Shown here: positions 12,068 to 42,544 of the stretch, piece by piece
How positions within the stretch are numbered: the first letter of the stretch is position 1
Layout: every line of letters starts with the position of its first letter
Assembly (NCBI GenBank): GCA_035710515.1
Contig: DASTDE010000004.1
Coordinates: 653,434 to 717,433 of the forward strand
DNA: 64,000 nt
Source of the DNA: Candidatus Rubrimentiphilum sp.
GTDB lineage: Bacteria > Vulcanimicrobiota > Vulcanimicrobiia > Vulcanimicrobiales > Vulcanimicrobiaceae
Direction: 5' to 3'
Made by a program: the position numbers and the translations under genes
The notes under the pieces: model-generated
What the model was told of the DNA's origin: nothing
The model's database searches: none
The model's input: the letters and a program-made list of their open reading frames with translations, nothing else

Positions 12068-12160
12068 TCTGTCATCCTCTGGCCCGGCGTGTCATCCCGA
12101 GCCCTAGTGTCATGGTGAGCCTGTCGAACCACAGCCGAGCCTGTCGAGGCGGGCTTTAAA
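12068..12160. repeat. Dispersed intergenic repeat, copy A
   Basis: This gap contains three successive GTCATCC/GTCATGG words, then a run matching the element at 41923-42102: GTGTCATGGTGAGC, a one-base change, then TGTCGAACCAC and GAGC. It lies between the serine hydrolase and the orphan gene, has no start-to-stop frame of interest and looks like a decayed or partial member of that repeat family. The terminal inverted repeats seen in the second copy are not recognisable here. Confidence 0.65.
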
Positions 12161-41057: not shown

Positions 41058-41933
41058 TTGCGTCATGTGATTTCGCTCATCTCTGAAAAGCAGGTCGTCG
41101 CCGCTATCCGCGGCGCGCGATCGGTCTTGCTGACCGCTTACGCGCTTCGTCCCGGCCGGGTCCTCGAAAACCTCGAAGATGCCGCCAGGCGCGGTGCGAG
41201 CGTGAGGGTTCGTCTCGAAGGACGGCCTTACGGCGACACCGCCGGCCACCTGATCGCGGACAACCGTCGTGCGGTGAAGGCATTGCGCCGGCTAGGCGCC
41301 GACGCCAAACTCGTCGACACCAACGCGCGCAACGGCCCGGCGCTGCACATGAAGGCCGCGGTCTGTGACGGCGTTGCGTATTTGGACGATCGCAACTGGC
41401 CCGACGGCGGCGACACGATTGTGCGCGACGATTTTCGGACTGACATCGCCGCGATCGAAGCAGCGGCGCTTCGACAGCCGTCCGTAAGAAGCGAAGAGTT
41501 TTGGACGAGCAAAGCGCAAGCGCTCGCCGCCGAACGGCGTTTGCTCGCCAGCGCCGCGCACGCGAAACGCGTCGACGTCGAAAGCGAGTCGTTCGGATCG
41601 GGCGGCGGCGCGTATGGCGAATTAAAGCGCTTGGCGCAATCCGGCGTTCCGTGCAGGCTGATCGTCGCGCAGCGCGATCTGAACGCCAAGTCCGAACGCG
41701 CGCTAGCGTCGCTGGCGCAAGCCGGAGTAGCCGTTCGCGTCAGCAGTTCGGACGAAAAGATGGCGATCGTCGACGGCGCGCGCGCGTGGATCGGCTCGGC
41801 GAATGCGACGTCCAGTTACGTGAACGGCGATCAGATCGATTGGGGCCTGCGAACGGACGCACCCGACGTGCTCGCGCATCTTCGCCGCCGATTCCAATCT
41901 ACGTGGAACACGGCAACCCCGTTGTCATCCTGA
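41058..41933 (+). CDS. Phospholipase D-like protein with one degenerate HKD motif
   Basis: A 291-residue protein with two PLD half-domains. The first site, ALHMKAAVCDGVAYLDDRNW, retains H-x-K. The second, SDEKMAIVDGARAWIGSANATSSY, has Asp where the His should be (D-E-K) but keeps the Ser-Ala-Asn-Ala tail. Nuclease, lipid or phosphotransfer activity is therefore uncertain. The start is TTG at 41058 or GTG at 41067. The last residues (LSS then TGA) are encoded by the left end of the repeat at 41923, so the natural C terminus may have been lost. Confidence 0.75.
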   Translation: MRHVISLISEKQVVAAIRGARSVLLTAYALRPGRVLENLEDAARRGASVRVRLEGRPYGDTAGHLIADNRRAVKALRRLGADAKLVDTNARNGPALHMKAAVCDGVAYLDDRNWPDGGDTIVRDDFRTDIAAIEAAALRQPSVRSEEFWTSKAQALAAERRLLASAAHAKRVDVESESFGSGGGAYGELKRLAQSGVPCRLIVAQRDLNAKSERALASLAQAGVAVRVSSSDEKMAIVDGARAWIGSANATSSYVNGDQIDWGLRTDAPDVLAHLRRRFQSTWNTATPLSS

Positions 41934-42102
41934 GCCCCGGTGTCATGGTGAGCTTGTCGAACCACGGCTGAGCAGCGAGCGAAGCGAGCCTGGACGAAGC
42001 CCGCACACGTTCGCCTCACGTGGGCCTCGACAAGCTCGGCCGCCCTTCGCCCTTCGACTCGCATTCGCTCGCTCAGGAGTAAACACTACGCTCAGGATGA
42101 CA
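41923..42102. repeat. 180-bp element with 13-bp terminal inverted repeats (MITE-like), copy B
   Basis: The ends are TGTCATCCTGAGC (41923-41935) and GCTCAGGATGACA (42090-42102), a perfect 13-bp inverted pair. Inside there is a second inverted pair, AGCTTGTCGA with TCGACAAGCT, and repeated GAGCGAAGCGAGC words, so the whole can fold as a nested hairpin. It codes for no transposase. It supplies the stop codon of the PLD-like gene. A related sequence lies at 12068-12160. Its structure resembles a non-autonomous mobile or palindromic repeat. Confidence 0.75.
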
Positions 42103-42130
42103 CTATTTGACCCCGCTCGAAGGCCCTTTC

Positions 42131-42544
42131 ATGACGCAAGCCGATCGTATAGAGGTTGCCGACCGTTATGCTAAGCTGCTGCAGCCGTATGCGAAGAAGC
42201 TAAGCCTGACGCATGAGAAACCCGGCCGGTACATGCTGATGACGAAAGCCAAGTCATTCGAAATACTCGTCAACGGCAAGTGGCAGATCCGGAAAGCGCC
42301 GTTCATGGTAGCTGGGGTCGTCGCGAATAAGAGCTACGTATCGTTCCACCTCGTGCCGGTCTACATGTTTCCGGATTTGATCGCGGCGTGTGCTCCGGAG
42401 CTGAAAAAGCGTATGCAGGGCAAGGGATGTTTCAATTTCCAGACCTATGACGCCGAGGCGGCGCGCGGGCTCAAAGCGTTGCTGAAAGCCGGGCTCGACC
42501 GCACGAAGAAAAGTCCGATGTTCAAACCCGGGACGTTCGATTAA
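42131..42544 (+). CDS. DUF1801-like small protein
   Basis: A 137-residue soluble protein. YVSFHLVPVYMFPDLI, LKKRMQGKGCFNFQTYD and a C-terminal Lys-rich helix resemble the DUF1801/YdhG-like family of small proteins that fold like a sterol-carrier or iron-chaperone domain. The assignment is tentative. ATG at 42131 has GAAGG eight bases upstream. It stands isolated right after the MITE-like element and is convergent with tatD, whose stop is adjacent. Confidence 0.6.
   Translation: MTQADRIEVADRYAKLLQPYAKKLSLTHEKPGRYMLMTKAKSFEILVNGKWQIRKAPFMVAGVVANKSYVSFHLVPVYMFPDLIAACAPELKKRMQGKGCFNFQTYDAEAARGLKALLKAGLDRTKKSPMFKPGTFD

Follow-up and report, generated by a model that had tools for sequence, protein, structure and literature searches.

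The 180-bp object at positions 41923-42102 of the window, the whole 64,000-nucleotide stretch of DNA analysed here, probably consists of two non-autonomous palindromic units of REP type, arranged head to head (tags-out), which belong to a family that has multiplied within a lineage of Candidatus Eremiobacterota. The best account that we can offer is that the family stands near the CGTC-tagged REPs, has a chained-hairpin build and few opposed pairs, is filtered by selection, and has spread by a route other than a Y1 transposase. A preliminary description had presented the object as a MITE-like element whose end provides the stop codon of a gene.

Anatomy of the element

The object carries three tags, two on the plus strand and one on the minus strand, and consists of two REP-like units together with an extra 5' tag. 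This extra or 'stutter' tag (TGTCATCCTGAGCCCCGG; 41923-41940, plus strand) lacks a 3' half of its own and is followed by a further tag beginning at 41941, with two mismatches to the 13-mer found at the ends of the object. The tag at 41941, TGTCAT, opens unit A (41941-42004, plus strand), which was delimited by the grammar of the family; with hairpin limits set by eye, its hairpin 1 is of the GG/CC class (about 41946-41964) and its hairpin 2 reads GGCT-GAG...CGA-AGCC (about 41966-42001). Unit B (42020-42102, minus strand) is of the CC class and begins with the tag TGTCATCCTGAG at 42102-42091. As judged by eye, its hairpin 1 is rearranged, with a second CCTGAG inside it, and its hairpin 2 reads GGCC-GAG-CTTGT-CGA-GGCC (about 42041-42023).

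The structural features reported previously are all present. The 13-bp terminal inverted repeats (41923-41935 and 42090-42102) are complementary over all 13 nt (100%), two more perfect inverted pairs of 11 and 10 nt are nested inside the object, and there is no long gene within its 180 bp. The relative that the preliminary description gave as 12068-12160 lies at 12070-12155 (plus strand), where by eye we recognize degenerate tags at 12070 and 12090 and a GG-class unit from 12108, the hairpin 2 of which reads GCC-GAG-CCTGT-CGA-GGC. With up to two mismatches the 13-mer matches five times in the 64-kb window against 1.03 expected, and none of 100 shuffles reached five. The whole 180-bp pair folds better than shuffled sequences (z -3.16).

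A family of chained, covarying hairpins

The proposal that the element belongs to a family is borne out on the scale of the genome. With no more than one mismatch the 13-mer has 124 matches in the 2.54-Mb assembly, where the window takes up 653434-717433 of contig 4; 51 of the matches are exact and there are none for the reversed control, and a strict pattern, TGTCATNNTGAGN{3,6}CGAA, recovers 130 copies with none for its control; the repeat is thus present in high copy number, not as a single copy. The 13-mer marks only the 5' end of a short hairpin repeat, as a single-ended tag, and is not one of two paired ends. Each unit is composed of the tag and hairpin 1 (TGTCAT-XX-TGAG...CGAA-X'X'), usually followed by further GAG...CGA hairpins, and simple units are about 41-66 bp long. 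All copies have a TGTC tag, as the pattern imposes, and a few CGTC variants occur.

The two sides of the stems vary together. Among the 100 listed copies of the 130 (those on contigs 1-3), XX and X'X' are complementary in 97, where 39.9 would be expected with independent sides, and the classes of hairpin 1 are CC/GG (55 copies), GG/CC (22), CG/CG (18) and TC/GA (2). When hairpin 1 is held to a fixed register with a 4-nt loop, 58 of 59 are complementary and the best of 2000 shuffles gives 39. Hairpin 2, in a set picked solely by the constant GAG and CGA, is complementary in 27 of 27 cases with just two stem types, against 23 for the best shuffle and 0-1 for slid registers. Loop length ranges from 4 to 6 nt among the listed 100, within the 3-6 that the pattern permits. 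One or two extra hairpins of the same build stand behind hairpin 1 in 81 of these copies, compared with 2 of 2000 after shuffling of the downstream bases, and a pyrimidine precedes GAG in 99 of 99 further hairpins. Next to the tag, T is opposite A in 82 of the 100 and opposite G in 17, and A is opposite C in 87. Listed rows from two other genomes, counted by eye, are complementary in 145 of 150 and include a GC/GC class too.

Single units receive no support from an energy model with DNA parameters when compared with shuffles (z +0.40, +1.95 and -0.41), and the hairpins therefore rest on covariation. A pyrimidine-GA-purine setting is favourable for tandem sheared G.A pairs, and the stem end of the repeat, which places GA opposite GA in such a setting, could form tandem G.A pairs.

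We also note that the base before the tag is T in 50, G in 31, A in 13 and C in 6 of the 100 listed copies. The GG class is usually preceded by G and the CC class by T, so the true end of the unit may be one base longer than the tag.

Cluster organization and orientation

Clusters of tags were drawn from stretches chosen around motif matches, which make up about a fifth of the genome and are not random, and the proportions given here are those of this set. It contains 193 tags in 134 clusters, of which 88 are single tags, 39 have direct neighbours only, and 7 have opposed tags. All seven opposed-tag clusters are tags-out, the object at 41923-42102 among them, and none is tags-in; counted as neighbouring tags over the 134 clusters, 52 are direct and 7 are tags-out.

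These counts bear on the MITE classification. A classical MITE derives from an insertion sequence by deletion: it keeps terminal inverted repeats, depends on a transposase acting in trans, and has target-site duplications on either side. The object resembles one in its small size, its perfect 13-bp inverted ends (in the copy at 41923-42102 only) and the lack of a long gene inside; the seven tags-out pairs could be read in the same way. However, the opposed end is absent from 127 of the 134 clusters, and the pairs vary in span from 132 to 194 bp, with flanks that share merely 5-8 bp in six of the seven. The seventh pair (C1:216240) does have an exact 24-bp flanking repeat. At the PLD-like locus described below, the joined flanks match a locus free of the element with no extra bases at the junction, and no target-site duplication was found in that comparison. 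With single-ended units and a PLD-like locus without target duplication, we dropped the classical MITE, which we regard as very improbable.

The tags-out pair at G000 C1:216240-216383 (L004, L131) is located at the start of a gene that we take to encode a probable DNA polymerase IV. The first codons of this gene recur on either side of the pair in the form of the exact 24-bp repeat, the left copy of which terminates at the TGA of a tag.

The PLD-like gene and its lent stop codon

The PLD-like gene occupies 41058-41933 (plus strand), and Pfam confirms its PLD-like domain (PF13091, E 1.8e-18). The stop codon, TGA at 41931-41933, lies inside the tag and in the left terminal repeat, as had been described. 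Four relatives with a PLD-like protein 72-76% identical to this one are recorded as Candidatus Eremiobacterota. One further locus, L123, is a second PLD-like copy in genome G004 and is free of the element. When the 180 bp are removed from our sequence the PLD-like frame reads ...ATPSI* in place of the present ...ATPLSS*, its TGA falls in the same column as the L123 stop, and no bases seem to be duplicated; L123 has 70% identity, so the junction is approximate. This alignment of the flanks supports the earlier view of an insertion whose end supplies the stop. The TGA at 42108-42110 (plus strand), which aligns with the stop of L123, is likely to be the former stop of the PLD-like gene. The downstream gene (42131-42544, plus strand; the start is that suggested by the L123 alignment) has no Pfam match at E 1e-5, and a relative of it adjoins the PLD-like copy at L123 too.

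Five homologues from four genomes of the genus end in ...ATPFAA*, ...AKPYAVSW*, ...ATPYA*, ...AQPF* and ...ATVFQNECI*. A repeat of the same kind is near the stop in four of these five loci, and the homologue ending AKPYAVSW* likewise uses the TGA of a tag, as read from its sequence. The claim that the insertion set the C terminus holds for the last residues only, albeit not as a truncation, since all five homologues end within a few residues of the same place.

LigA provides a second set of homologues. Of the six genomes compared, three have a LigA ending ...LL* or ...LLA* and three, including this one, end ...LLSS* by way of the tag TGA, and a repeat stands behind or within the LigA stop in all six. 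In both sets the stop lent by a repeat alters the last few residues only. At L177 (LigA, G000 C4:245573-247690) a single gene combines an internal repeat that keeps the frame with a stop codon furnished by the TGA of a tag.

Repeats at gene ends

A custom gene scan, with codon scores trained on 19 ORFs of the window, covered 141 outward tags, and 88 of them come after a coding 3' end. The gene stops before the tag in 56 of these 88, at the tag TGA in 14, and later in 18, of which 11 are copies inside genes. In 26 of the 56 the stop is within 10 bp of the tag, and 30 of the 88 tags are separated from the preceding stop by over 10 bp.

Where genes could be called on both sides of a cluster (40 of the 134 clusters were excluded), tags face the 3' end of a gene 74 times and the 5' end 27 times. 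This bias, the 26 tags lying 0-10 bp behind a stop, and the covariation of the paired bases are what a conserved RNA element of 3' ends would give, a transcript end protector or terminator placed by selection and not by transposition. We consider this unlikely as the origin of the family. On the opposite side of the clusters the neighbouring gene presents its 3' end 38 times and its 5' end 49 times, 19 of the 134 clusters lie inside genes, and the folding of single units, as noted above, does not exceed that of shuffles. Moreover, no terminator-like site was seen in a search at 41923-42102, and a search of 12 sources returned no Rfam match. Some units may nonetheless work as RNA after insertion.

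The position of the stop codon raises a different alternative, in which the repeat aims at the last codons or the stop of genes. Insertions that cut into gene ends have the tag in the TGA frame in 14 of 21 cases, where one third is expected (p = 0.0018), and the tag TGA also ends a PLD-like orthologue in G004 as well as LigA in three genomes. However, the excess is reduced to 14 of 32 (p = 0.14) when the 11 copies inside genes are counted, and it can be accounted for by selection against long frame-shifted tails alone. The tags that stand well behind a stop and the clusters inside genes are also not where an element with this preference should be. Although targeting rather than selection may lie behind the frame excess, a repeat that seeks out stop codons seems to us improbable, and we favour REP-type units whose gene-end copies have been filtered by selection.

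In-frame copies inside genes

First gene calls placed 38 of the 134 clusters inside genes, and a stricter two-sided test, which requires a single reading frame to continue across the repeat and coding signal to be present before and after it, retained 19. The profile of a protein family spans the insert site in 16 of these: release factor 3, UvrC, PurL, a xanthine-dehydrogenase-like protein, ValS, a Dpp5-like peptidase, an ATP-dependent DNA ligase, HemL, a TIGR00366-like protein, error-prone DNA polymerase (DnaE2), a HutI-like protein, a FadJ/FadB-like protein (two sites), a methionine gamma-lyase family protein, IleS and LigA, with the '-like' matches scoring under the NCBI cut-offs. Dxr and a hydantoinase-like protein show portions of their families to either side of the insert, and the insert of a weakly polymerase-IV-like protein (C3:48736) is not crossed by any profile. 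Gene and tag run in the same direction in 13 of the 19 (frame CH.E in 8 and V..S in 5) and in opposite directions in 6. The two in-frame repeats of the FadJ/FadB-like gene at L074:581-2590 (minus strand) point in opposite directions.

We compared orthologues of UvrC, IleS and LigA between genomes that are about 10-30% divergent at the level of the proteins used here. The frame is open across the site in all 19 rows (18 loci); one stop was flagged in several of the IleS and LigA matches, and it falls outside the stretch between the alignment anchors. In UvrC, just two of the six genomes have a tagged unit, CC-class here and GG-class in G004, and the full unit is missing from the four others. 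The internal site of LigA has a tagged unit in four of six genomes and no full unit in two, and other LigA orthologues stack up to several tags at the one site. Because of these differences at UvrC and LigA, units must have been gained or lost within the genus.

IleS has a tagged unit in five of the six genomes compared, CC-class in two and GG-class in three. Hairpin 1 is complementary in all five tagged copies, as is hairpin 2 (three of them read by eye). The IleS orthologues (L160-L165) share the insert site, and the tag is framed differently here than in the other four tagged genomes; this difference at a shared site suggests separate insertions at one tolerant place in the protein.

The same comparisons bear on whether the copies might be old and immobile, with gene conversion and tandem slippage producing the changes of class and the stuttered tags. 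Such a history would fit the 52 direct neighbouring tags, the stacking in LigA, the near-constant presence of a unit in IleS and of a repeat at the LigA stop, and the lack of a candidate enzyme when PF01797 was sought. It fits poorly with the scattered occurrence of units in UvrC and at the internal LigA site, and simple conversion does not yield the difference in tag frame in IleS. Differences of class at one orthologous site could be the result of gene conversion instead of re-insertion, but as an account of the whole family we find immobility rather doubtful and prefer units that move.

Distribution and the search for a mobilizing enzyme

The pattern occurs in 80 of 149 genomes of the phylum, 71 of the 80 belonging to the family of the window, and its control gave one match over the 149 (by eye). 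Genome G144 belongs to another family (f16) and holds 284 copies, with none in the seven other genomes listed for f16; its copies may be due to transfer or to a binning error. At least 120 viral contig stretches carry the CC form, so the motif is not confined to the genomes of the phylum. Two arrangements elsewhere are of note. At G060 C1:1902516-1903099, 21 copies in the same orientation and 25-50 bp apart form a direct tandem array, and at G098 C2:4002-4500 the orientation mostly alternates, with the GC class on the minus strand and the CC class on the plus strand, similar to the REP mosaic elements of enteric bacteria.

PF01797, the Y1/RAYT transposase family, gave no match in the seven genomes of the genus, one of which is just 56% complete, and on these grounds we dropped a Y1 transposase as the mobilizer in the genus. 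Across the phylum it is found in 26 of 149 genomes, 4 of them in the family of the window, and 23 of the 26 hold three or fewer repeats (by eye).

A model for the spread of the repeat

We propose that each unit has an unpaired 5' tag, TGTCA, and one to three small hairpins of the form N3-4-GAG-loop-CGA-N'3-4, the stems of which vary yet remain matched, with tandem G.A pairs possibly formed at the constant GA/GA stem end. Units would move, perhaps as single-stranded hairpins, with the help of an enzyme that is not a Y1 (RAYT) transposase. Selection would then act as a filter that retains copies between genes. At gene ends, copies would be kept in the frame ...TCA-TCC-TGA, which gives an immediate stop and adds about two residues, as with the PLD-like gene, and within proteins the copies that survive would be those in tolerant places that do not interrupt the frame.

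A more far-reaching version is possible, and we put it forward tentatively. The family could be a REP family spreading without a Y1 transposase by way of an enzyme that reads the tag and the tandem-G.A hairpin, with repeated insertion of peptides into UvrC, IleS, ValS, LigA, DnaE2 and RF3, such that orthologous proteins of sister species have different and still changing segments made by the repeat; it might even prefer the stop-giving position at gene ends.

Comparison with known repeat families

Literature searches on the 13-mer, REP/RAYT, CGTC REPs, repeats of Eremiobacterota, Rickettsia elements and intragenic palindromes, covering titles and the first parts of abstracts, returned no description of this family. 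As far as these searches show, the lineage, the chained covarying hairpins and the evidence from orthologues are new.

The closest relatives in build are the CGTC-tagged REPs, which we compare as they appear in portions of the account of Di Nocera et al. (2013; PMC3733652). In those portions, the repeats have an unpaired CGTC or TGTC tag and a hairpin with alternative complementary stem residues and short loops; the stem begins with a paired A and T, and the loop is 4-5 nt. They are mostly intergenic near gene 3' ends, with some already known to occupy DNA synthesis or repair genes, they have no associated transposase, and what moves them is left open. HH dimers dominate, HT dimers are negligible and clusters are rare. 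The phyla named for CGTC repeats are the Proteobacteria, Chlorobi, Bacteroidetes, Spirochaetes and Thermotogae, and RPE-4 and RPE-6 are classed under these repeats. The present family has in common with them the TGTC tag, a short-loop hairpin with alternative complementary stems, and copies that are mostly intergenic near gene 3' ends with some inside DNA repair and synthesis genes. As to a transposase, the genus gave no PF01797 match. In contrast to what those portions describe, it chains one to three hairpins, the A adjacent to the tag usually faces C although the T mostly faces A, direct neighbours dominate with few tags-out pairs, and the host phylum is outside those named. With many copies, no Y1 transposase found in the genus, and several covarying stem classes, the family offers a clean case for the question of how CGTC-type repeats are moved, and the same genus also provides orthologous sites with and without units.

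GTAG REPs and REPINs share with this family short palindromic units that occur as singles, inverted pairs and arrays, and the donation of stop codons; the same portions of that account report that the ends of GTAG REPs often hand stop codons to neighbouring genes (PMC3733652), so that this property was known before. Those repeats go with RAYT transposases, whereas here the tag is TGTC and PF01797 is absent from the seven genomes of the genus. Finally, the Rickettsia palindromic elements, as described in part of a published account (PMC10969869), are about 150 bp long and were already known to be inserted in-frame in many unrelated genes. By that description they are like the present repeat in standing in-frame inside genes and unlike it in size, the simple units here being shorter. 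In-frame invasion of proteins by palindromic repeats, known in Rickettsia, is thereby extended to a distant candidate phylum.
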